Origin: Embleya scabrispora
Lineage (GTDB): Bacteria; Actinomycetota; Actinomycetes; Streptomycetales; Streptomycetaceae
Assembly (NCBI RefSeq): GCF_002024165.1
Contig: NZ_MWQN01000001.1
Coordinates: forward strand, 5,952,001 to 6,016,000
Reading direction: 5' to 3'
Length of the DNA: 64,000 nucleotides
This document shows positions 1 to 13,820 of this stretch, piece after piece. How positions within the stretch are numbered: position 1 is the stretch's first letter; every line of letters starts with the position of its first letter. The notes under the pieces are model-generated. The model saw only the letters and a program-made list of their open reading frames with translations. It did no database searches and was not told where the DNA came from. Both the position numbers and the translations under genes were made by a program.

Positions 1-977
<977 letters not shown>

Positions 978-1021
978 TCACACACCGCGCGAACCACCGG
1001 GACCGGAGCGGTCACCGGGGT

Positions 1022-1102
1022 TCAGTGGGACATGCGACACGCCATGCTGGTCACGCGCACGAGATCCACGTGGCGGCGACTGACGAGCATGGGGCAGGAC
1101 AT
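1022..1102 (-). CDS. Putative cysteine-type leader peptide upstream of the sulfhydrylase gene
   Basis: A short reading frame starts at ATG 1102 (26 aa) or ATG 1090 (22 aa). It contains the core SRRHVDLVRVTSMACR and stops soon after the cysteine. This matches the actinobacterial leader-peptide pattern SRRHVDLxRVxSxxC, often annotated as 'putative leader peptide' in front of sulfur and amino-acid genes. A TACACT hexamer (1110-1115) ends 7 nt before ATG 1102, which would give a leaderless transcript starting at or next to the start codon. The stop lies 311 nt before the sulfhydrylase start, leaving room for an attenuator. The function is inferred; the match to the peptide pattern is direct. Confidence 0.75.
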   Translation of the reverse strand: MSCPMLVSRRHVDLVRVTSMACRMSH

Positions 1103-1295
1103 GGCCGCGAGTGTAGGCGGCCCGACGCGGTTTGCGCCACGGGGTGGCGCGCGCCACCCGCCACCGGTCGGCGCCGGACCCGTGCCTCGGCCGTCGACGG
1201 CCGCGATGTCCGACCCGTCCCCTTACGCGTCGTCGACCGCATGTGACGGAAAGTCCGCTGGACCAACACGCCTTCGTCGTGCTTACATCACGGCC

Positions 1296-1382
1296 ATGAC
1301 TCCGCGTCAGGTCGCTTCCGCGCTGCTCGACCCCTTCTGGGTGGGTCGACGAGCCGACCACTTCGACCAGATCTGTCGCTGA
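1296..1382 (+). CDS. Candidate second leader peptide, upstream of the oxygenase-sulfhydrylase fusion
   Basis: A 28-codon frame (ATG 1296, TGA 1380-1382) ends in VGRRADHFDQICR. It has a double arginine, an aspartate and a penultimate cysteine, so it loosely resembles the minus-strand leader. It lies about 240 nt upstream of the fusion gene on the same strand. No ribosome binding site is evident. A TTACAT/TACATC hexamer (1283-1289) sits about 6-7 nt before the ATG, so a leaderless message is possible. The frame is open for a long way upstream because of base composition, so the start is uncertain. It could be chance. Confidence 0.35.
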   Translation: MTPRQVASALLDPFWVGRRADHFDQICR

Positions 1383-1623
1383 CCCCTGCGCTCGTGCGGT
1401 GCGCTTTCGCGCCGCCGAGCAGGTGTGTGCCCGCCCCCGCGTGACCTGTGTCGGTCCGCCGCGCGCCGGCCCGCCCGCCTTCCGCGTCGCCGCCCTTCGG
1501 GCCGGCCGCGCCGTCCGTACCCGATCTCGCCCCACCCGCCGCGAATCCGCCGTGCCGCGCCCCGCCCTCTCCCGGGCCGGCGCCCGGTCCGGCGTGCCCG
1601 AGGCTGTACCGAGGACCCCAGTC

Positions 1624-3987
1624 ATGGCAACCAGCGCACCGCCCACCACCCTGCCCGTGATCGACATCTCCCGATTCCGCGACCCCGCCGCGGACCCGGC
1701 CGCCTTCCTGGCCGAACTCCGCTACGCCGCACGGGAGATCGGCTTCTTCTACGTGATCGGCCACGGCGTCGACCCGGAGCTGCGGGCCCGCGCCCTCGCG
1801 GTCTCGAAGCGCTTCTTCGCGCTGCCCGAGGCGGACCGGCTCGCGGTGGAGAACATCAACTCGCCGCAGTTTCGCGGGTACACCCGCACCGGCACCGAAT
1901 ACACCGAGGGCGGCCCGGACTGGCGCGAACAACTGGACATCGGCCCCGAGCGGGCGGCGCTCGACCTCGGCCCGGACGATCCCGCCTACCTGCGACTGAT
2001 CGGCCCCAACCAGTGGCCGGCCGCGCTGCCCGAGCTGCGCGAGACCGTACTCGCCTGGCAGGCCGAGGCGTTGCGGGTCAGCCGTGAGGTGCTGCGGGCG
2101 CTGGCCGCCGCGCTCGGCCAGGACAGCGGCTACTTCGACCAGTGGTTCGACGAGGAGGCCGCGGTCCACGTCAAGGTGGTGCACTATCCGGGGCGGCCCA
2201 GCGCCGACGTGGACCAGGGGGTGGGAGCGCACAAGGACTACGGCTACCTCGCACTGCTCCAGCAGGACGAGATCGGCGGCCTCCAGGTGCAGGCCCGGGA
2301 CGGCTCCTGGATCGACGCGACGCCGCTGCCGGACGCGTTCGTGTTCAACATCGGCGAGATGCTGGAGATCGCCACCCGCGGCTACCTGCGGGCCACTCGG
2401 CACCGGGTGGTCGCCCCGCAACCGGGCGTCGACCGCTACTCGTTGCCGTTCTTCCTCGGCCCGCGCCTGGACGCGGTGGTCGAACCGCTGGACCTGCCCG
2501 CCGAGTTGGCCGCCGAGGCCGACGGGGTCACCGAGGATCCGAACAATCCGCTCAAGCCCGCCTACGGGGAGAACGCGCTGATCGGGTGGCTGCGGTCGCA
2601 TCCGCGCGTGGTGGAGCGGTGGTGGTCGGACCTGCTCCCGGGCGCCGACGAACCGCCCGAGCCCCGACCCGCCTTCGAGACCCTCCAGGTCCACGCCGGT
2701 GCCCGCCCCGACCCGGCCACCGGCGCCCGCGCCGTGCCGATCTACCTGACCAGCAGCTACGTCTTCCGCGACGCGGCGCACGCGGCCGACACGTTCGCGC
2801 TCACCGACCTGGAGACGCACGCCTACACCCGGCTGTCCAACCCCACCACCGCCGTGGTGGAGGAGCGCGTCGCCGCACTGGAAGGCGGCACCGCGGCGGT
2901 GGCCGTGGGCAGCGGTCAGGCCGCCACCACCCTCGCGCTGCTCAACCTGGCCCGCGCCGGCGACCACCTCGTCGCGGCGGCGTCCCTGTACGGCGGCACC
3001 CGCACCCTGCTCGAACACACCTTCGCCGACCTGGGTATCGAGGTGACCTTCGTCGACGACCCGGACGACCTCGACGCGTGGCGCGCCGCGATCCGACCGA
3101 CCACGAAGGCGCTGTTCGGCGAGAGCGTCGGCAACCCGCGCGGCAACGTGCTCGACCTGGCCGCCGTCGCGGAGATCGCGCACACCGCCGGTGTCCCGTT
3201 CGTGGTCGACAACACGGTACCCACGCCGTACCTGCTCCGGCCGATCGAGCACGGCGCCGACATCGTGGTGCACTCCACCACCAAGTTCCTCGGCGGACAC
3301 GGCACCGCGATCGGCGGCATCGTGGTCGACGGCGGCACCTTCGACTTCGGCGCGCACGCCGACCGCTACCCGGGCCTGGTCGCGCCCGACCCGACCTATC
3401 AGGGCCTCTCCTTCTGGGAGCGGTTCGGCCCGGACCGGATCGCGTACGCGCTGCGCCTGCGGGTACGGCTGTTGCGCGACCTCGGCCCGGCGGTGTCGCC
3501 GCTGAACAGCTTCCTGCTGCTCCAGGGCATCGAGACGTTGTCGCTGCGCCTGGACCGGCACACCGCCAACGCCGAGCGGGTGGCGGCCTGGCTCGCCGCG
3601 CGGCCCGAGGTGGTACGGGTGGACCACCCGAGCCTGCCCACCAGCCCCTGGCACGCGGCGGCTCGGCGCTACCTGCCACGCGGCGCGGGAGCGGTACTGT
3701 CGGTGGACCTGGCCGGCGGCCTGGCGGCCGGGCGGCGCTTCGTCGAGGGACTGCGGCTGTTCAGCCACCTGGCCAACATCGGCGACGCGCGCAGCCTGGC
3801 GATCCACCCCGCGTCCACGACCCACGCGCAACTGGACCCCGATCAGCGGCTGCACGCCGGGGTGACCCCCGGACTGGTCCGGTTGTCCGTCGGCCTGGAG
3901 GGTATCGACGACCTGCTCGCCGACTTGGCAGGCGGGTTGGCGGCCGCCGCGGCCGGCACCGACAGCTCCGCGGAGGGTTCCCGATGA
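1624..3987 (+). CDS. Bifunctional 2OG-Fe(II) oxygenase (IPNS-like) fused to O-acetylhomoserine sulfhydrylase
   Basis: 787 residues with two complete enzyme domains. Residues 1-335 are an isopenicillin-N-synthase-family oxygenase: LPVIDISRF at the N-terminus, [10 protein letters not shown], iron ligands H203, D205 and H260, and the 2-oxoglutarate-binding R271-Y-S273. After a Pro/Glu-rich linker (about 336-350), residues 351-787 are an O-acetylhomoserine sulfhydrylase with [34 protein letters not shown] and PLP lysine K554 in [10 protein letters not shown]. There is no stop or frameshift between the domains. The start at ATG 1624 is chosen because the IPNS family N-terminus follows at once; upstream open frame looks non-coding. 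The next gene overlaps by ATGA. The fusion suggests that a sulfur compound released by the oxygenase is handed to the sulfhydrylase; the substrate is unknown. Confidence 0.92.
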
Positions 3988-4826
3988 CCACCCGTCAGGC
4001 CGTACACGAGAGCCGGATCCGCGGTGCCCGCGGCGAGTTCCACCTACGCGTATGGCCGGTCGCGGGCGAACCCGTCGCGGTCGTGCTCTTCCTGCACGGA
4101 CTCGGCGAACACGCCGGTCTGCACGAGCCGTTGGCGCGTCGACTCAACGCCGACGGGATCGAGGTGTGGGCCCCCGACCAGATCGGCCACGGCCTCAGCG
4201 ATGGCACCCGGGTCCTGGTGGAGAGCCTGGACGCGCTCGCCGACGACGCCGAACTGGTCCTGGCGCGGATCACGGCGGGCCGCCCCGGCGTACCGCTGAT
4301 CCTGGCCGGCCACTCGCTCGGCTCGGCCGTCACCCTGCTGCTCGCGGGCGAGCGGGCCGCCGCCGCGTCCGCCCGCGCGCTGGTCCTGGCCGGCGCCGGG
4401 ACCGGGTTGTCGGCGGGCGAAAGCGGTCTGCGCGCGCTGCTCGCCGAACACGGCATCGACCCGATGTCGCTGCGCAAGGACCCGAGCGAACTGTGCACGA
4501 ACGCCGAGTACGCCGAGCGGTTGCGCAACGACCCGCTGGTCTGGTCCGGCGGCCTGCGCCCCGAGACGCTGGACGCGCTGGAAGCCGGCGGCGCGCGGAT
4601 CGCCGCACTGATCGCCGGCGGCACGATCACGCGGCCGGTGCTCTTCGTCCACGGCGAGGCCGACGACCTCGCGCCCGCGAGCGCGGTCCGCGCCGCCGCC
4701 GAAACGCTGCCCGACGCCCGGGCCCGAATCTTCCCCGGCGACCTGCACAACGTGCTCGCCGAACAGGACAGCGCCCAAGTGCACGACGAGATCGCCGAGT
4801 TCGTGCTGGCCGCCGCCCGCGCCTGA
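3984..4826 (+). CDS. Alpha/beta hydrolase (monoacylglycerol-lipase / serine aminopeptidase S33 type)
   Basis: 280 residues. The start overlaps the stop of the fusion gene (ATGA), so translation is probably coupled. Features of the Hydrolase_4 family are visible: oxyanion segment LFLHGLGEHAG, nucleophile S111 in GHSLGS, acid in HGEADDLAP and base in GDLHNV near the C-terminus. No signal peptide, so probably cytoplasmic. It would cleave an ester, thioester or amide. In this context it may release the oxygenase substrate from an imported conjugate; that role is inferred only. Confidence 0.88.
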   Translation: MTTRQAVHESRIRGARGEFHLRVWPVAGEPVAVVLFLHGLGEHAGLHEPLARRLNADGIEVWAPDQIGHGLSDGTRVLVESLDALADDAELVLARITAGRPGVPLILAGHSLGSAVTLLLAGERAAAASARALVLAGAGTGLSAGESGLRALLAEHGIDPMSLRKDPSELCTNAEYAERLRNDPLVWSGGLRPETLDALEAGGARIAALIAGGTITRPVLFVHGEADDLAPASAVRAAAETLPDARARIFPGDLHNVLAEQDSAQVHDEIAEFVLAAARA

Positions 4827-4925
4827 GCCCCCGGGCCGGCCGGCCCCGAAGCCGCACGGCCCCGCCGCCCCGCGCGGCCCCACGTCACCCCCGCACCACT
4901 TCACCCGCAAGGAGATCGATCCACC

Positions 4926-6479
4926 ATGCGCCGCTCCGCGCTCCGCATCGCCGCCGTCCTCGCCCTGGCCGGACCGGTCCTCGCCGCGTGCGGCTCCGGC
5001 GGCACCCCGAATCCCACCGCCAACGGCGCCAATACCCAGGCCCCGGCGCCCGCGGACAGCGCGCTCGACCCGAACGCCACGGCCCGGGTGCGACTGGTCC
5101 TGGAGCCCACCAGCCTCAACCTGACCACCACCGCCGGCGTCGCGCTGGAACAGGTTCTGCTCGACAACGTCTATCAGGGACTGCTCGGCGTCGACACCAA
5201 CGCCGACAACAAGATCGTGCCCGCCCTGGCCTCCGGCTTCGAGACATCCCCCGACGGCCTCACCTACACCTTCCACCTCACCCCCGGCGCCGCGTTCCAC
5301 GACGGTTCGCCGGTCACCGCCGAGGACGCCGTCTGGTCGCTCCAGCAGGTGCTCGCGCCCGGCTCCAAGCAGCCGAACGCCAAGACCCTGGCCTCGATCG
5401 CGGGCGTGGCCGCACCCGACCCGGCCACCGTGGTGATCACCCTCAAGCAGCGCGACACCAACCTCACCTGGGCGCTGACCCAGCGTCAGGGCGTGATCTA
5501 CAAGAAGGGCACCGACTTCGCCCGGCTGGACACCACGGAGAACGGCACCGGCCCGTTCAAGCTCGACGGCTGGCAACGCGGCTCGGCGATCACCCTCGTG
5601 CGCAACGACGCGTACAAGGGCGCCAAGGCGAAGGTGGCCAAGGTCGTGCTCAGCTACATCCCCGACCGCAACGCCGCGAACAACGCGCAGGCCACCGGGC
5701 AGACCGACATCGAGACCGCCGCCGAGGCCACGCTGCTCCAACCCTTCACGGGCAACGACAGGTTCACCGTGCTGCGCGGCACCACCACCGACAAGTACAC
5801 GCTGGCGATCAACAACGCCAAGGCACCGTTGAACAACCCGGCCGTGCGGCACGCCATCCGGCGCGCGATCGACAAGGACGCGCTGATCAAGTCCCTCGGT
5901 GGAGCGGGAGTTCGGCTCGGCGGCCCGATACCCACCTCCGACCCCGGCTACCAGGACCTGACCACCATCGACCCGCACGACGCGGCGGCGGCGAAGAAGG
6001 CGCTCGCCGACGCCGGGGTCACCGATCTCAAGCTCACCCTGAAGATCCCCAACATCTACCCGGCCGCGATCGGCGACGTCCTGGTCTCCAACCTCAAGGA
6101 CGCCGGTATCGAACTCACGGTCAAGCAGCAGGAGTTCACCGCCTGGCTGAGCGAGGTCTACACCGCGAGGGACTACGACCTGAGCCTGGTGAACCACGCC
6201 GAGCCGCACGACGTCGGCAACTTCGCCACCCCCGGCTACTACTTCGGCTACGACAACGCGCAGGTGCGCGAGTGGTACGCGCAGGCCGTGGCCGCGCCCG
6301 ACGAGCGCACCCGCACCGATCTGCTCGCCAAGGTCGGCCGCCAGGTCGCCGAGGACGCCGGCGCCGACTGGCTGTACCAGGCCCAGACACTGACCGTGGT
6401 GCGCAAGGGCGTCAGCGGCGCACCCCAGCACCACACCAGCAGCCGACTCGACCTCGCCCGCATCGGGATCACCAAGTGA
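4926..6479 (+). CDS. ABC transporter substrate-binding lipoprotein, family 5 (peptide/nickel type)
   Basis: 517 residues. The N-terminus is a lipoprotein signal with lipobox LAAC (C22), so the protein is anchored outside the membrane. The SBP_bac_5 fold is recognisable (FETSPDGLTYTFHL, FHDGSPVTAEDAVWSL, NNPAVRHAIRRAIDK). AAGGAG at 4909-4914 supports ATG 4926. It delivers oligopeptide-like or other small solutes to the DppBCDF-type importer encoded directly downstream. In this family the ligand cannot be read from the sequence; association with the sulfhydrylase fusion suggests an organosulfur compound or a conjugate of one. Confidence 0.93.
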   Translation: MRRSALRIAAVLALAGPVLAACGSGGTPNPTANGANTQAPAPADSALDPNATARVRLVLEPTSLNLTTTAGVALEQVLLDNVYQGLLGVDTNADNKIVPALASGFETSPDGLTYTFHLTPGAAFHDGSPVTAEDAVWSLQQVLAPGSKQPNAKTLASIAGVAAPDPATVVITLKQRDTNLTWALTQRQGVIYKKGTDFARLDTTENGTGPFKLDGWQRGSAITLVRNDAYKGAKAKVAKVVLSYIPDRNAANNAQATGQTDIETAAEATLLQPFTGNDRFTVLRGTTTDKYTLAINNAKAPLNNPAVRHAIRRAIDKDALIKSLGGAGVRLGGPIPTSDPGYQDLTTIDPHDAAAAKKALADAGVTDLKLTLKIPNIYPAAIGDVLVSNLKDAGIELTVKQQEFTAWLSEVYTARDYDLSLVNHAEPHDVGNFATPGYYFGYDNAQVREWYAQAVAAPDERTRTDLLAKVGRQVAEDAGADWLYQAQTLTVVRKGVSGAPQHHTSSRLDLARIGITK

Positions 6480-6540
6480 TCTCGCACCGCCGGCCGCCGC
6501 GCGCCCGGCCGTCGCGACCCGGCCCGGATCGGGGTCCGGC

Positions 6541-7509
6541 ATGACCGTGTTCGTCGTGCGCCGGCTCGGACTGCTCGCACTGTCCCTGCTCGGCGCGAGC
6601 ATCCTGACCTTCGCCCTGCTGCGACTGCTCCCCGGCGACGCCGCCGCCTCGGTCGGCGGCATCACCGCCGACAAGGCGCAACTGCGTTCCATTCGGCACG
6701 ACTTGGGCCTCGATCGGCCGCTGATCGTGCAGTACTGGACCTGGCTGACCGAGGTACCCACCGGCGACCTCGGCCACTCGCAGCTCAACGGCTCCTCGGT
6801 CACCGGCGAACTCGGCGAGAAACTACGGGTCACCGGCCCGCTCGTGCTCGGCGCGCTGGCCCTGGCGCTGGCCTTCGCGGTACCGCTGGGAATGCTCGCG
6901 GCGGTGCGCCGAGAGCGGCGCGACGGTACCGCGATCAGCGTGGCGAGCCAGCTCGGGATTGCCCTGCCCACGCTGTGGGTGGGCCTGTTGCTGATCCTGC
7001 TGTTCGCCGTGCAGACCCCGCTGCTGCCCGCCCAGGGCTTCCCCGTGGACGGCTGGGCCGACCCCGGCGAGGCGAGCCGCAGTCTGGTGTTGCCGACGCT
7101 GACCCTCGCCCTGTCCGAGGGCGCGGTGCTGCTGCGCTTCGTGCGCTCGGCCACGCTCGACGTCCTGCACCGCGACTACCTGCGAACCGCACGCGCCGCC
7201 GGGCGCACCCGCACCGGCGCGCTGCTTCGGCACGGGCTGCGCAACGCGGCCGGGCCGGTGTTGTCCATGCTCGGTGTGCAGGTCGCCGCCCTCCTGGTCG
7301 GAGCGATCGTGGTGGAGAAGGTGTTCACCCTCCCCGGCGTCGGCTCGATGCTGGTCGCCGACGTGGGCAACCGGGACCTGGTCAAGGTGCAGGGCGAGGT
7401 GATGCTCCTGGTGGCGATCGTGCTGTTCGTCGGGTTCCTGGTGGACATCGCCCAACGGCTGATCGACCCGCGCCTGGCGGACGTTCGGGTCCGGGAGGTG
7501 TCCGGATGA
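6541..7509 (+). CDS. ABC transporter permease, DppB/OppB type
   Basis: 322 residues with about six membrane segments. The N-terminus FVVRRLGLLALSLLGASIL is typical of DppB, and the EAA-loop sequence DYLRTARAAGRTRTGALLRHG contacts the ATPase. It ends with DIAQRLIDPRL, the usual DppB C-terminus. It pairs with the permease domain of the next gene, whose start codon overlaps the TGA of this one. 61 bp separate it from the binding-protein gene. Confidence 0.93.
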   Translation: MTVFVVRRLGLLALSLLGASILTFALLRLLPGDAAASVGGITADKAQLRSIRHDLGLDRPLIVQYWTWLTEVPTGDLGHSQLNGSSVTGELGEKLRVTGPLVLGALALALAFAVPLGMLAAVRRERRDGTAISVASQLGIALPTLWVGLLLILLFAVQTPLLPAQGFPVDGWADPGEASRSLVLPTLTLALSEGAVLLRFVRSATLDVLHRDYLRTARAAGRTRTGALLRHGLRNAAGPVLSMLGVQVAALLVGAIVVEKVFTLPGVGSMLVADVGNRDLVKVQGEVMLLVAIVLFVGFLVDIAQRLIDPRLADVRVREVSG

Positions 7510-9257
7510 GGGCGCGAGACGCCGGCGGCCCGGTGGTGCGCGCGCTGCTGCGCGACCGCAACGGCCTGATCGGCGGCACGCTGGTCGCGATCCTGGTCGG
7601 CGCGGTGCTGCTGTCGCTCGTGTGGACTCCGTACGACCCGACCGCCGTCGACCCGAACTCGCCCTGGCTGCTCCCGTTTTCGGACGGACACGTGCTCGGG
7701 ACCGACATGCTCGGACGGGACCAGTTCAGCCTGATCCTGGCCGGCTCCCGGGAGACCCTGGCAATCGCGCTCGGCTCGGCCGGGATCGCCGCCGCGCTCG
7801 GCGTGCCACTGGCGCTGGCGGCCGCGCTCGGGCCGCGCCGGGTCGCGGCCGGAGTGGTGCAACTGGTCGACGTGGCCATCGCGTTCCCGGCGCTGCTCAC
7901 CGCGATGATCCTGGCCGCCGTGTTCGGCGGGTCGGTGTGGACCGCCGCGAGCGCGATCGGCGTGGCGTTCGGAGTACACCTGGCCCGGATCGCCCGGGCC
8001 GAGATCGAGCGGGTGGCCGGTACCGACTACGTCCTGGCCGCCGCCGCGAGCGGATCGAGCACGTGGCGCACCGTTCGGCGACACATCCTGCCGAACATCG
8101 CGCCGACCCTGCTGGTCCAGCTCTCGCTGGTGATGGCGGTGGCCTCGCTGACCGAGGCCGCGCTGTCCTACCTCGGGTACGGCAGCCCCGCGCCGGCCGT
8201 GTCCTGGGGCCGGATCCTGCACGACCAACAGCCCTACATCTCGGCCCGGCCGCTGCTCGTGGTCTGGCCCGGACTCGCCGTCGCGCTCACCGTTTTGGGC
8301 TTCAACCTGCTCGGCGACGCGCTGCGCGACGCCACCGATCCGCGCCTGCGGCACGGGGGATCGGGGCCGGTCGCCAAGGCCGACGTCGAGCGCGCGGTGC
8401 GGGCGACCCGCCCGCCCGCCGCGGTCGACGGCGCGCTCCTGGAGATCACCGACCTCACCATCCGGATCGCCGGCCGCACCGTGGTGGACGGCGTCGACCT
8501 GACCCTCGCGCCCGGCGAACGGCTCGGCCTGATCGGCGAGTCCGGCTCCGGCAAGTCGCTCACCGCGCTGGCCGTGCTGGGCCTGCTGCCCGAGGGCGCC
8601 GAGGTCACCGGCAGCATCCGGCTCGACGGCGCCGAACTGCTCGGCCGCTCCGAGCGCGAACTCGCCCGCATTCGCGGCGATCGGGTCGCCATGGTCTTCC
8701 AGGAACCGCTCACCGCGCTCGACCCGACCATGCGCGTCGGCCGGCAGATCGCCGAACCGCTGCGCCTGCACCGGGGCCTGACCCGCCGTCGGGCCGACGA
8801 GGCGGCGATCGAGCTGGCCGCGCGGGTGGGCCTGCCGGATCCGGCCGACCTGGTCCGGGCCCGGCCGCACCAGCTCTCCGGCGGGCAGCGCCAGCGGGTG
8901 GGCATCGCGATCGCCCTGGCCTGCCGACCGGCGCTGTTGATCGCGGACGAGCCGACCACCGCGCTGGACGTGACCGTACAGCGGGACATCCTCGCGCTGC
9001 TCGACGAGCAGGCCCGGGAGCAGGGCACCGCGCTGCTGTTCATCACGCACGACCTCGCGGTGGTGTCGTCGGTGAGCGATCGCATCGCGGTGCTGCGCGG
9101 CGGGCGTACGGTCGAACAGGGGCCGCTGCGGACGATCCTGCACGACCCGCGCGCGCCCTACACGCGCGCGCTCCTCGCCGCCGCGCGGGCGACGGCGTTC
9201 ACCCCGATCGAGGCGCCGACCGAGATTCCCACCGACTCCGTGGAGGCCGCGTCGTGA
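7506..9257 (+). CDS. ABC transporter permease-ATPase fusion (DppC + DppD)
   Basis: 583 residues. About 1-290 form a DppC-type permease (LGTDMLGRDQFSLILAGSR, EAA loop DYVLAAAASGSSTWRTVRRH, ending DALRDATDPRL). About 305-583 form a DppD-type ATPase: Walker A GESGSGKS, signature LSGGQRQRVG, Walker B LLIADEPTTALD, switch histidine in FITHDLAVV. In most dipeptide importers these are two polypeptides; the fusion also occurs in other actinobacteria. The ATG at 7506 overlaps the preceding stop (ATGA) and the stop overlaps the next GTG (GTGA), so the cassette is translationally coupled. Confidence 0.93.
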   Translation: MRARDAGGPVVRALLRDRNGLIGGTLVAILVGAVLLSLVWTPYDPTAVDPNSPWLLPFSDGHVLGTDMLGRDQFSLILAGSRETLAIALGSAGIAAALGVPLALAAALGPRRVAAGVVQLVDVAIAFPALLTAMILAAVFGGSVWTAASAIGVAFGVHLARIARAEIERVAGTDYVLAAAASGSSTWRTVRRHILPNIAPTLLVQLSLVMAVASLTEAALSYLGYGSPAPAVSWGRILHDQQPYISARPLLVVWPGLAVALTVLGFNLLGDALRDATDPRLRHGGSGPVAKADVERAVRATRPPAAVDGALLEITDLTIRIAGRTVVDGVDLTLAPGERLGLIGESGSGKSLTALAVLGLLPEGAEVTGSIRLDGAELLGRSERELARIRGDRVAMVFQEPLTALDPTMRVGRQIAEPLRLHRGLTRRRADEAAIELAARVGLPDPADLVRARPHQLSGGQRQRVGIAIALACRPALLIADEPTTALDVTVQRDILALLDEQAREQGTALLFITHDLAVVSSVSDRIAVLRGGRTVEQGPLRTILHDPRAPYTRALLAAARATAFTPIEAPTEIPTDSVEAAS

Positions 9258-10066
9258 CCGCGCCCGCCGTACTGCTGCGCGCCGAGGGCCTGACCCGGAC
9301 GTATCGGCTGCCGCGTCGTTCGTTGTGGGCCCCACCGGGGCGGCGGTACGCGCTGCGCGGGGTGGATCTGGCGCTGGCCGAGGGCGGCGCGCTCGGCGTG
9401 GTCGGCGAGTCCGGCGCGGGCAAATCCACCCTGATCCGGCTGCTGCTCGGCCTGGACCGGGCCGACGGCGGCACGGTCCGCTACCGCGACCGCGAGGTCC
9501 GACCCGGGCCGGCCCGCGGCCTGACCTGGTTCCGGCGCGAGGTGCAGATCGTGCTCCAGGACCCGATGAGCTCGCTCGACCCCCGCGCGCGGGTGCGCGA
9601 CATCGTGGCCGAACCGCTCGAATGCCTGGGCGTCGCCGGCGACCACGACGCGCGGGTGGACGAGGTGCTGGCCGCCGTCGGCCTGGACCCCGACACGCGC
9701 GACCGGTACCCGCACGAGTTCTCCGGCGGCCAACGGCAGCGTGTCGCCATCGCCCGAGCCCTCGCCCCCGCCCCGCGCGTGCTGGTCGCCGACGAGCCGG
9801 TCAGCGCGCTCGACGTGTCCGTCCGGGCGCAGATCCTCGATCTGCTCGGCGACCTCAAAACCCGACTCGGCCTGTCCCTCGTGCTGGTCTCGCACGACCT
9901 CGGCGTGGTGCAACACCTGTGCGACGAGGTCTTGGTCCTGAAGGCGGGCGAGGCCGTGGAGTCCGGCCCGACGGCGCGGGTCCTGGGCGACCCCGGCCAC
10001 GCGTACACCCGGGCCCTGCTCGCGGCGGTCCCCACGCTGCCCGCGCCGAGGGGGTCGGTCGTGTAG
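9254..10066 (+). CDS. ABC transporter ATP-binding protein, DppF/OppF type
   Basis: 270 residues starting at GTG 9254, which overlaps the stop of the permease-ATPase fusion. Walker A is GESGAGKST, the signature is FSGGQRQRVAIARAL, Walker B is VLVADEPVSALD and the switch is LVSHDLGVVQHL. It lacks the long C-terminal iron-sulfur or regulatory tail of some OppF proteins. Together with the ATPase half of the previous protein it forms the nucleotide-binding dimer of the importer. Confidence 0.93.
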   Translation: MTAPAVLLRAEGLTRTYRLPRRSLWAPPGRRYALRGVDLALAEGGALGVVGESGAGKSTLIRLLLGLDRADGGTVRYRDREVRPGPARGLTWFRREVQIVLQDPMSSLDPRARVRDIVAEPLECLGVAGDHDARVDEVLAAVGLDPDTRDRYPHEFSGGQRQRVAIARALAPAPRVLVADEPVSALDVSVRAQILDLLGDLKTRLGLSLVLVSHDLGVVQHLCDEVLVLKAGEAVESGPTARVLGDPGHAYTRALLAAVPTLPAPRGSVV

Positions 10067-10138
10067 CGCGCGTGGAGGGCGGGTAGCAGCGCTGATCCCG
10101 GGTCGGCACGGCTCGGGTGCGCCCACCCCGGAGGGACC

Positions 10139-10621
10139 ATGTCGATCGAGGCCGCCGCCGACGAAGTGGAACTGCGGGTCAACGGGGACCCGCGCCGGAT
10201 CCGCGTCGACCCGCGCGTCACCCTGTTGGACGCGCTGCGCGACGAGTTCGGGCTGACCGGCCCGAAGAAGGGCTGCGACCTGGGCCAGTGCGGCAGTTGT
10301 ACCGTGCTGCTCGACGGTCGCCGGATCACCTCGTGCCTGACCTTCGCGGTGATGCACGACGGGTGCGAGGTGACCACCATCGAGGGCCTGGGCGGGGATC
10401 CCGAGGGGGAGTTGCACCCCGTACAGCGGGCGTTCGTCGACCACGACGCGTTCCAGTGCGGTTTTTGCACGCCCGGGCAGATCATGGCCGCGGTCGCGCT
10501 GCTGGACGAGGGCCACGCGGGGGACGACGACGAGATCCGCGAATGGATGAGCGGCAACCTGTGCCGGTGTGCCGCGTATCCGAACATCGTCACGGCGATC
10601 GCCGCCGCGGCCGGGCGGTAG
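10139..10621 (+). CDS. Molybdenum hydroxylase [2Fe-2S] subunit (PaoA/YagT or CoxS type)
   Basis: 160 residues. The plant-type ferredoxin cluster ligands are C46, C51, C54 and C66 ([13 protein letters not shown]). The second, helical [2Fe-2S] cluster ligands are C107, C110, C142 and C144 (CGFCTPGQ and LCRCAAYPN). There is no Tat signal, unlike E. coli PaoA, so the enzyme is probably cytoplasmic. GGAGGG lies just before ATG 10139. It passes electrons from the molybdenum centre to FAD. It lies 72 bp after the importer, same strand. Confidence 0.94.
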
Positions 10622-10626
10622 CCGCG

Positions 10627-11616
10627 ATGCGTCCCTTCACCTACACCCGTCCGGACGAACCCGCGCATGCCTGGGCCGAGCTGGGCCCGGACGCGATGTA
10701 CATCGCCGGCGGCACCAACCTCGTCGACCTGATGAAGTGCGGTGTGGCGGACCCGGCCCGGCTGGTCGACATCGGCGGGCTGCCGCTGGGCGGGATCGGG
10801 CCCGACGGCGACACGCTCCGGATCGGCGCCCTCGTCCGCAACAGCGACCTGGCCGCGCACCCCGTGGTGGCCGAGCGCCTGCCGGTGCTCGCGCAGGCCC
10901 TGCTCGCCGGCGCCTCGCCCCAACTGCGCAACCTCGCCACGCTCGGCGGCAACCTGATGCAGCGCACCCGGTGCGGCTACTTCCGCGACCCGTCGATGCC
11001 GTGCAACAAGCGGCTGCCGGAGAGCGGCTGCGCGGCGCTGGACGGCGACCACCGGGGGCACGCGGTGCTCGGGACCAGCGAGCGGTGCATCGCCACCCAC
11101 CCGTCCGACCTCGCGGTCGCGCTGCTCGCGCTGGGCGCCCGGGTGCGGATCGACGGGCCCGGCGGCCCGCGCGAGGAGCCGATCGACGCCTTCCATCTGC
11201 CGCCGGGGGACACCCCCGAGCGGGAGACCACGCTCGTGCACGGCGAGTTGATCACCGGGGTCGAGGTGCCGCTGACGGCACTGGGTGCCCATTCGTACTA
11301 CCTCAAGGTGCGCGAGCGGGCCTCGTTCGCGTTCGCGATGTGCTCGGTGGCGGTCGCCCTGGACGTCCGTGAGGGCACCGTTCACGACGCCCGGATCGTG
11401 CTCGGCGGTGTGGCGACCACGCCGTGGCGGGCGGTCGCGGCCGAGACCGCGCTGATCGGCGCGCCGCCGAGCACCGCCGCGTTCGCCCGGGCGGGGGAGG
11501 CGGCCACCGAGGGCGCCCGGCCGCTGCGGGACAACGGGTACAAGGTCGAATTGATCCGTCGCGTCGTCGCCCGGGCGCTGACCACGCTGACCGCCGGGGA
11601 AGGGGAACGCGGATGA
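10627..11616 (+). CDS. Molybdenum hydroxylase FAD subunit with [4Fe-4S] insert (PaoB/YagS type)
   Basis: 329 residues. The FAD-binding PCMH fold shows [15 protein letters not shown] and [17 protein letters not shown]. The segment [21 protein letters not shown], followed by a cysteine in [11 protein letters not shown], matches the extra [4Fe-4S] site known in PaoB-type subunits and absent from ordinary CoxM proteins. The start lies 5 nt after the stop of the 2Fe-2S gene, and the stop overlaps the start of the molybdopterin subunit. The PaoB resemblance suggests an aldehyde oxidoreductase rather than a xanthine or CO dehydrogenase. Confidence 0.92.
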
Positions 11617-13820
11617 GCCCGGAACAGGCGTGGATCGGCCGACCCCTGACGCGGGTGGACGGCCCGGTCAAGGTCACCGGTACCGCGATGTACACCGGCG
11701 ACACGGTCCTGCCCGATCTCGCCCACGCCGTGCTGGTGCAGAGCACCGTCGCCAAGGGCCGGATCCTCGAGACGGACGTCGCCGCCGCCGAGCGCGCGCC
11801 CGGTGTGCTGGCGGTGTGCGCCTCCGACGGCTCGTTGGGCATCGGCCCGGTGGCGTCCTTCTACTCGGCGGACGGCGGGCCGATGGGCGACGGCCGGACA
11901 CCGCTGTCCGACGCGGTGATCCACCACCACGGGCAACATGTCGCGATGGTGGTCGCGGAGTCCCGGGAGCAGGCGGTTGCCGGCGCCGAGTCGATCCGGA
12001 TGCGCTATCGGGAAGAGGCACCGCTGACGCGGATCGAGGACGCGATTGCGCAGACTCCGCCGGGTCGCGAGGACGTGGTCCGGGGCGACCTGGCCACGGG
12101 TCTGGCGGTGGCCGACGCGACGGTCGAGGCGTACTACGAGACCCCGCCGCAGCACATGAACGCGATGGAGCCGTGCACCACCACCGCGCGCTGGACGGGC
12201 AATCGGCTCACCGTCTACGACTCGACGCAGTACGTCTTCGGGGTGCGCGCGGCGCTGGCCGAGGCATTCGGGCTGCGGCCCGAGGACGTTCGGGTGTTGT
12301 CCGGGTTCGTCGGCGGCGGCTTCGGCAGCAAGGGCACGGTGTGGCCGCACGTGTTGTTGGCCGCGGCGGCGGCGCGGCTGGTCGGCCGACCGGTGCGCCT
12401 CGCGCTCACCCGGCCGCAGATGTTCACCTCGTGCGGCGTGCGCCCGCCCACCCGGCAGCGGGTGGTGCTCGGCGCGCGGCGGGACGGCCGGTTGACCGCG
12501 ATCGCCCACGACGGCACCACGGCGACGTCCTTCGGGGAGAACGTGGTGGAGAACACCGGCGGGCCGACCGCGATGTTGTACGCCTGCCCGAACGTGACGA
12601 TCCGGCAGCGCATCGTGCGGCTCGACATGCAGCCGCCGACCTTCCAGCGTGCGCCCGGCCGCGCCCCGGGATCGTTCGCGCTGGAGTCGGCCCTGGACGA
12701 GTTGGCGCACGAACTGAGACTCGACCCGGTGGAGTTGCGGCTGCGCAATCACGCCGACACCGATCCCTCGTCGGGTCGACCGTGGTCGGGTAAACACCTG
12801 CGCGAGTGTTACCGCCTGGGCGCCGAGCGGTTCGGCTGGGACCCCACCGACCGCACGCCGGGCACCCGTCGCGACGGCGATGTGCTGATCGGCAGCGGGA
12901 TGGCGAGCGCCACGCACGAGATGGACCCGGGGCCGGCCGCGGCCTATGCCGAACTGCGCGTCGACGGCACCGCCGTGGTGGGCGTCGCCTCGCACGAGAT
13001 CGGCACCGGGACGTACACCGTGTTCGCGCAGATCGCCGCCGACGTGCTGGGCATCGGGCCGGATCGCATCTTCGTCAGGCTCGGCGACAGCGAACTGCCC
13101 GAGGCGCCACCCTCGATCGGCTCCCAGACCGTGGCCTACGTCGGCCCGGCGATCCGGCGGGCCTGCGAATCGGTACGGGACGACCTGCTGGCCGGCGCCC
13201 TGGCCGACCCGGAATCGCCGCTGTACGGGCGGGAGATCGCCGGGATCGAGTTCGGCCCCGACACCTTCGTGGGCGAGCTGTCCCGGATCGGCTCGCCGTC
13301 GATCTCGGCGATCGGCCACGCCCATCCGGACGCCGGATCGCCCTACGCCGTGCACTCGTTCGGCGCGCAGTTCGCCGAGGTCGCGGTGGACGCGCTGACC
13401 GGAGTGGTGCGGGTGCGGCGGATGGTCGGCGCGTTCGACATCGGCCGGGTGATCAATCCGCGCACGGCGCGCAGCCAACTCCTGGGCGGGATGACCTTCG
13501 GTCTGGCCCAGGCGTTGATGGAGGCGACCACGATCGACCCGCGCCGGGGGCACGTGGTCGAACCGCACCTGGCGGGCTATCACCTGCCGGTGAACGCCGA
13601 TGTCGGCGCGCTCGACGTGCTGTTCGTGGACGTCCCCGACCCGCATATCGGCGACGTCGGCGCGCGGGGCGCGGGCGAGATCGGCGTGGTCGGCGCGGCG
13701 GCGGCGGTCGCCAACGCGGTCTTCCACGCGACGGGGGTACGGGTGCGAACGTTGCCGATCGCGCCGGACCGGGTGGTGGCGGCCGGGTCAGGGCTGGGGT
13801 GGGGGGACTTCGGCGAGTGA
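11613..13820 (+). CDS. Molybdenum hydroxylase molybdopterin-binding subunit (PaoC/YagR type)
   Basis: 735 residues, the usual length. It begins with [15 protein letters not shown] and contains the molybdopterin loop [10 protein letters not shown], the arginine segment [22 protein letters not shown] and the catalytic glutamate E689 in GAGEIG. It hydroxylates its substrate (aldehydes in PaoC) with water as the oxygen source. ATG 11613 overlaps the previous stop. No XdhC/PaoD cofactor-insertion chaperone gene follows; the next gene is on the opposite strand, and the 3' ends overlap by 33 bp. Confidence 0.93.

Follow-up and report, generated by a model that had tools for sequence, protein, structure and literature searches.

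The 64,000-nt stretch of Embleya scabrispora DNA analysed here (NCBI RefSeq assembly GCF_002024165.1, contig NZ_MWQN01000001.1, positions 5,952,001 to 6,016,000; hereafter the window) comes from a genome of 10.96 Mb and carries, on its forward strand, an open frame that runs from an ATG at 1624 to a TGA ending at 3987. The frame encodes one polypeptide of 787 residues, in which an Fe(II)/2-oxoglutarate (2OG) oxygenase is followed by an O-acetylhomoserine sulfhydrylase (MetY). Short open reading frames (ORFs) for cysteine-containing leader peptides and a divergent metY lie upstream, and the genes of an ATP-binding cassette (ABC) importer lie downstream. The fusion is real; it is derived and local, the two parts being neighbouring genes in a widespread pair elsewhere.

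The fused gene and its closest relatives

Three Pfam domains, all on the forward strand, exceed their cut-offs in the fused protein. Specifically, DIOX_N (PF14226, 118.1 bits, cut-off 27.3) covers residues 10–133 (1651–2022), the 2OG-FeII_Oxy core (PF03171, 81.3 bits, cut-off 23) covers residues 185–280 (2176–2463), and the Cys_Met_Meta_PP, or O-acetylhomoserine sulfhydrylase, domain (PF01053, 417.7 bits) covers residues 352–772 (2677–3939). A short inter-domain linker, placed by alignment at about residues 337–349 (2632–2670), separates the two halves. The protein passes the cut-off of TIGR01326 for O-acetylhomoserine/O-acetylserine sulfhydrylases (598.8 bits, cut-off 495.1; NCBIfam) and fails the equivalog cut-off of NF005872, the PRK07812 bifunctional sulfhydrylase (689.5 bits, cut-off 703). 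The oxygenase core carries H203, D205, H260, R271 and S273, which are unchanged in all 83 aligned oxygenases, and the pyridoxal 5′-phosphate lysine K554 is unchanged in all 107 aligned MetYs. The original prediction of an oxygenase joined to a sulfhydrylase is thus borne out by the open frame and by the Pfam and TIGR01326 scores; every catalytic residue it named is at its place, and the intact motifs suggest, as it supposed, that both domains are active. Its assignment of R271-x-S273 to 2OG binding stands as to the residues. Isopenicillin N synthase (IPNS) also has an RxS motif, so that RxS alone is no proof of 2OG use. An AlphaFold model of the fusion, built with five close alignment rows, reached a mean predicted local distance difference test score of only 37.8, and was too poor to be used.

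The same in-frame fusion recurs in Embleya hyalina, E. scabrispora, Yinghuangia soli and Y. seranimata records, making five genomes with the window's own, and the fused protein is 98% identical to its E. hyalina counterpart. Because four other genome records share the fusion, a sequencing error hiding a stop near the junction, by which the original prediction could have failed, is ruled out. The fusion is not universal in either genus. At E ≤ 1e-60, no oxygenase match was found in G003, one of four Embleya genomes (1650 contigs, MetY present), or in G020, from the genus to which two further fusion-bearing genomes belong.

The oxygenase was described by the original prediction as IPNS-type, which holds only for its fold and motif. 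By score, the family profile is closer to PaIPNS (6JYV, 245 bits) and to Anc357 (284 bits) than to true IPNS (104 bits), and identity with true IPNS is rejected. Among natural proteins with a solved structure, PaIPNS is the closest relative (phmmer, 190 bits). It shares the iron ligands and RxS of the family, but its aligned stretch ends short of the C-terminal LRSHP-type motif conserved in the family. We take 6JYV to be PA4191. PaIPNS is reported to bind 2OG and not δ-(L-α-aminoadipyl)-L-cysteinyl-D-valine and is described without known function (PMC12329707), and only similarity to plant O-demethylases is reported for PA4191 (PMC7423160). The top match in the PDB, 9ovh, bears the name of an ethylene-forming enzyme, which raises the idea that the oxygenase acts on 2OG or arginine in the manner of such enzymes. 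We consider this very improbable: true ethylene-forming enzymes score 55–64 bits, compared with 190 for PaIPNS, and 9OVH is the reconstructed ancestor Anc357, which, according to PMC12329707, gave only trace ethylene, with PaIPNS behaving alike.

The oxygenase–MetY pair in other genomes

At E ≤ 1e-60, the oxygenase has matches in 155 of the 297 genomes from the window's family, and at E ≤ 1e-90 in 52 of 394 from its class. At E ≤ 1e-75, with the seed genome included, they occur in 4 of 385 genomes in the class of Geminicoccus and in 21 of 398 in its phylum. A search with the whole fusion gave 479 loci, of which 80 were retained; 14 of these 80 hold both genes side by side, four fused and ten split. 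Among the 53 best-match loci from the family and class searches, MetY adjoins the oxygenase in nine (five fused, four split). Coverage of the fusion query reaches at least 80% in 38 plasmid records, and an adjoining MetY is found on plasmids from Azospirillum, Roseomonas, Pseudoroseomonas, Shinella, Sinorhizobium, Rhizobium, Ensifer and Methylobacterium. Fourteen plasmid regions were fetched from the top of the match lists, 11 of them with gene tables. MetY adjoins the oxygenase as a separate gene in seven of these 11, standing first in Roseomonas, Pseudoroseomonas and Shinella and second in two Azospirillum, Sinorhizobium and Rhizobium; no MetY stands directly beside it in the other four (Pantoea, Klebsiella, Phyllobacterium and Chlorohelix). 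The linkage is therefore repeated in two phyla, and the Alphaproteobacteria show both gene orders. The search for the fused architecture, as proposed with the original prediction, finds the fusion in Embleya and Yinghuangia and the two-gene pair elsewhere. What had been put forward as a fusion of enzymes known separately does exist, as a derived form of this pair. We found no relevant publication on the pairing among the open-licence papers listed.

We then constructed trees of both partners. The oxygenase tree has 83 non-redundant rows, and a row counts as linked in it when a MetY match lies no more than 400 bp away in the same orientation. Its 30 linked rows fall into three clades, namely that of the window (13/15), a Frankia-type clade (5/5) and a Proteobacteria–Chlorohelix clade (12/17). 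The unlinked clades comprise 34 rows from the window's family and 10 rows from small actinobacterial genomes, and two long branches are likewise unlinked; support for the deepest joins is weak. The MetY tree, built from 107 rows by a quick method with SH-aLRT support only and a midpoint root, has 30 linked rows in four places, requiring 5 changes compared with a shuffled mean of 26.5. The linked groups are proteobacterial (11/11), Frankia-type (5/6, with the remaining row at a contig edge), the window's own (12/12) and one Actinacidiphila case, which consists of two identical rows, apparently from one genome, among ordinary metY–metX rows. The proteobacterial figure weighs little, because unlinked proteobacterial MetYs were outside the sample. 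Since the linked MetYs occupy four separate places, the tree suggests that different MetYs were recruited repeatedly beside the same oxygenase. Furthermore, the Embleya, Yinghuangia and Frankia-type loci retain a separate metY with metX, so that the linked copy is a paralogue. The fusion's MetY matches an actinomycete MetY of known structure (PDB 4kam) over the whole domain with 562 bits, and differs from it in being the C-terminal half of a larger protein and in belonging to the separate clade in which all 12 rows are linked.

The split junctions bear on how the fusion arose. A four-base overlap (ATGA or GTGA) could provide the start of the second gene in six of the eight junctions read (loci L030, L051, L055, L066, L071 and L083), and a gap separates the genes in L037 and L028. 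Joining overlapped genes would need a frameshift together with loss of a stop. It is nearly an even call whether the fusion itself is neutral, overlapping genes having been joined by chance and the fused and split forms being equivalent, which would be compatible with the sulfur-scavenging role proposed below. The possible overlaps agree with such an origin, as do linker lengths that differ among species and another fusion within this operon: an ABC permease and ATPase are joined in one 583-aa ORF (7506–9257, forward strand) and encoded by two overlapping genes in Amycolatopsis (L055), a warning that this lineage may fuse overlapping genes even where nothing requires it. Maintenance of the fusion in two genera argues the other way, with purifying selection on both the oxygenase part (NG86 dN/dS 0.054–0.198 in five pairwise comparisons) and the MetY part (0.065–0.177, likewise five). 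A benefit of the fusion, if there is one, might be local delivery of a volatile product or merely fixed stoichiometry.

Cysteine-containing leader peptides

Aligning the regions upstream of the oxygenases revealed a conserved leader-peptide ORF of 28 aa at 1296–1382 on the forward strand, 241 bp upstream of the fused gene. The peptide ends RRADHFDQICR-stop, with a TGT codon for the cysteine of the terminal D-Q-I-C-R. Its core, LLDPFWxxRRADxFDQxCR, was found upstream of eight oxygenases, with a DEVCC variant in one locus. The cysteine is encoded by TGT in all eight cores whose codons were listed, of which one is an additional copy in L164. In the window's operon, six genes have TGC five times and TGT not once. 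In the five genomes searched with the 1296–1382 peptide, the sole strong match lies ahead of the oxygenase, and all others have E values of 0.05 or worse. The peptide has no NCBIfam match listed up to E 10, NF042934 included.

A second leader-peptide ORF, of 26 aa (RRHVDLVRVTSMACR), lies at 1022–1102 on the reverse strand ahead of the divergent metY, and matches NF042934, ‘putative leader peptide’, with 30.1 bits (cut-off 27). Peptides of this RRHVD...C type, resembling the Cys-rich leaders of NF042934 (the Ms4527A family), lie ahead of the window's metY and of 26 among the 66 actinomycete oxygenases; the leader of the fused gene differs from them, being of the LLDPFWxxRRADxFDQxCR type. In mycobacteria, leader peptides of this kind serve as cysteine-responsive attenuators. 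Two RRHVD...C leaders ahead of solitary oxygenases match the same NCBIfam models below cut-off. Twenty-four of the 26 belong to loci without a MetY found nearby (L111–L156), where they lie about 80–280 bp upstream of the aligned oxygenase start, so those oxygenases too look sulfur-regulated.

Taking both types together, a Cys leader lies within 600 bp upstream in 34 of 66 non-redundant actinomycete oxygenase loci, a count that is partly selected because the motifs were chosen after some of these loci had been seen. On the antisense strand the count is 0 of 66, and the mean over 20 shuffles is 0.0. The background is 3 of 4730 other 600-bp windows of the actinomycete loci; these omit the 1.2 kb ahead of each oxygenase or MetY, and there is some overlap among loci. 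All three background leaders have the LLDPFWxxRRADxFDQxCR core and precede luciferase-like monooxygenases (L043) or major facilitator superfamily genes (L044 and L164). The leaders point to control by cysteine supply, and the 1296–1382 peptide is probably a cysteine-responsive attenuator. As an alternative regulator, a riboswitch was sought: no Rfam match was obtained at gathering scores in eight related loci, and none to E 0.1 in window positions 1–12000.

A possible role in sulfur scavenging

The operon continues on the forward strand with an alpha/beta hydrolase gene (Hydrolase_4, 3984–4826), which overlaps the fused gene by an ATGA. It is followed by an SBP_bac_5 (SBP5-type) substrate-binding protein of an ABC importer (PF00496, 255.3 bits; 4926–6479), an ABC permease (BPD_transp_1, 6541–7509), the joined permease–ATPase and a second ABC ATPase (9254–10066). 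On the reverse strand, divergent from the fused gene, a stand-alone MetY paralogue with 70% identity occupies 1–710 and extends past the window edge, with metX next in relatives. The alpha/beta hydrolase was considered as a constant third partner, an idea weakened by a Chlorohelix hydrolase that matches that of the window at only 54 bits and an Azospirillum thermophilum one without a match.

We propose, with moderate confidence, that the fused gene is one form of a widespread two-gene sulfur-scavenging unit in which an imported thioether yields a thiol that MetY captures, under the control of cysteine shortage. In this scheme, the downstream SBP5-type importer would bring in an organosulfur compound, probably a thioether, and the N-terminal oxygenase would hydroxylate the carbon adjoining sulfur. 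The resulting hemithioacetal would be unstable and break down to an aldehyde and a small thiol, most likely methanethiol, with H2S or another thiol also possible. The C-terminal MetY domain, using O-acetylhomoserine, could then convert methanethiol to methionine or sulfide to homocysteine, and the upstream Cys-containing leaders would tie expression to cysteine shortage. The substrate class, the chemistry of C–S cleavage, the hand-over of the thiol and the mechanism of regulation are all inferred. An oxygenase that releases thiol or sulfide to MetY under sulfur shortage would explain the linkage, the neighbours and the leaders together. The original prediction had an oxidative step feeding thiol capture, an idea that gains from the linkage in two phyla, the scavenging neighbours and the Cys leaders; its direct channelling between the two active sites is a conjecture, and its purpose of disposing of a toxic thiol fits less well, since sulfur supply in starvation appears to suit the evidence better.

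A flavin enzyme, DmoA, splits dimethyl sulfide into methanethiol and formaldehyde, a reaction of the proposed type that gives the hydroxylation and collapse a precedent. FMN (flavin mononucleotide) monooxygenases of the DmoA/NtaA family are encoded near the oxygenase in some loci, where all four neighbouring monooxygenases tested exceed the family cut-off (TIGR03860, 488–568 bits, cut-off 279.7); they differ in being flavin-dependent and of unrelated fold. In the window's own genome, the family has two above-cut-off places, more than 1 Mb away or on another contig and not beside the fusion. The same genome has two above-cut-off matches to mtnA (TIGR00512), which fits methylthioadenosine salvage and is unspecific.

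A related system is methylthio-alkane reductase (Mar). The plasmid of Candidatus Chlorohelix allophototropha (L169, Chloroflexota) carries an oxygenase 54% identical to that of the window, together with a Mar-like cluster at 4849–12040. In particular, the oxygenase comes after genes annotated as nifB, a NifB/NifX-type gene, nifH and two for nitrogenase component 1, and before one for a Hydrolase_4 protein, with an annotated O-acetylhomoserine sulfhydrylase (OAHS) and an SBP5 importer upstream, about 6–9 kb from the oxygenase. One component 1 protein is MarD-like, scoring 475 bits to 9FMG and 134 to the best nitrogenase, and the other is MarK-like, with 419 bits to 9d9u and 59 to the next chain. 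PMC12552129 identifies 9FMG as the MarDK2H2 structure. In Rhodospirillum rubrum, Mar cleaves the C–S bond of methylthio-alkanes to give methanethiol (PMC12552129), which OAHS captures (PMC5893883); Mar is nitrogenase-like and reductive, whereas the fusion's enzyme looks like an O2-using 2OG oxygenase and is fused to, or stands beside, MetY. Mar-like genes are tied to methyl-sulfur clusters in PMC10418091, in which the word oxygenase does not occur. Methanethiol is favoured as the product because of the Mar, DmoA-family and MetQ-type neighbours.

The sulfur genes on the plasmids also suit another explanation. SsuD is present in 3 of the 11 annotated regions, SfnB in 3 of the 11, and sulfonate or sulfate transporters in others, as expected if the oxygenase desulfurises a sulfonate, sulfone or S-oxide and releases sulfite or sulfide into the general pool, MetY being merely co-expressed and receiving nothing directly. 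The leaders ahead of the 24 oxygenases without a nearby MetY agree with this. That a MetY was recruited next to the oxygenase on more than one occasion fits a product such as a thiol or sulfide better. Sulfite is not known to be a MetY substrate. On balance we regard release into the general pool as unlikely. BisC-family-like S/N-oxide reductases also occur near the oxygenase, in Pantoea (928.5 bits) and Azospirillum (955.9 bits), below the cut-off of 1017.55.

The order of the two reactions could also be reversed, MetY joining an imported thiol or other nucleophile to O-acetylhomoserine and the oxygenase then oxidising the product, for biosynthesis or detoxification. The PDB matches of the MetY domain include its relative FUB7 (8erb, 447 bits), known for C–C bond formation from O-acetylhomoserine. 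Three observations make this order distinctly improbable: most of the annotated neighbours serve uptake and scavenging, the leaders point to starvation control, and the TIGR01326 score is well over its cut-off.

A less selected Pseudomonadota sample comprises 21 oxygenase regions, 3 from one search and 18 from another, and 20 control stretches from the same genomes. A MetQ/MetI-type importer is present in 10 of the 21 regions, a MetY-family gene in 9 and either in 16, compared with 0 of 20 controls for both; SfnB, in 2 of 21 and 0 of 20, is not enriched. The importer and a MetY-type gene are both missing from the remaining five regions, of which L228 and L232 bear another label. The oxygenases are duplicated in tandem in two of these genomes (L227 and L230).

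Several observations, from this sample and elsewhere, weigh against the proposal. SsuD (1/21 and 1/20), flavin reductase (2 and 1) and luciferase-like monooxygenase (1 and 0) show no enrichment over controls, and SBP5-type binding proteins occur in 0 of 21 regions and 2 of 20 controls. A MetY at least 50% identical stands directly beside the oxygenase in only 4 of 21; the MetY-family matches of L227, L230 and L233 are only 38–40% identical and lie about 4 kb off, that of L227 being nearest to cystathionine gamma-synthase models, and L239 and L240 carry beside the oxygenase, instead of MetY, an enzyme nearest to methionine gamma-lyase models, below their cut-offs. The importer type varies by lineage (SBP5, NrtA/SsuA or MetQ), so the substrate may vary too. 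Among the 53 best-match loci, mostly from the window's family, 44 have no MetY in the flanking sequence covered, which is up to 1.5 kb on each side. Both leader motifs are absent in 37 loci of other phyla. Finally, the Mar link is one record: a plasmid search for MarD matched only Chlorohelix and a Treponema (40.8% identity), and MarD was found in 0 of 385 genomes in the class of G651 and 0 of 116 in the family of G1208, counts that are uninformative without a known-positive genome.

The linkage and the leaders place the oxygenase family in sulfur scavenging, while PaIPNS, its nearest natural solved relative, has no described function. According to PMC5893883 (2018), methanethiol arises from 2-(methylthio)ethanol in aerobic Rhodopseudomonas palustris through ‘unknown enzyme(s)’, and OAHS can turn methanethiol into methionine. 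The family is a candidate for that aerobic enzyme. More tentatively, and with the chances against it, it may constitute an undescribed O2- and 2OG-dependent class of C–S bond-cleaving enzymes, the aerobic counterpart of Mar. The repeated pairing and the fusion offer a ready test system for direct hand-over of a volatile sulfur intermediate.

Two further observations concern neighbouring genes. On the Klebsiella plasmid (L165), a relative of the oxygenase occurs with a MetQ-type importer beside purine-catabolism (hpx) genes. In the window, genes for a molybdenum hydroxylase of the xanthine/aldehyde oxidase type follow the importer operon at about 10630–13820, and their product could process the aldehyde or be unrelated.

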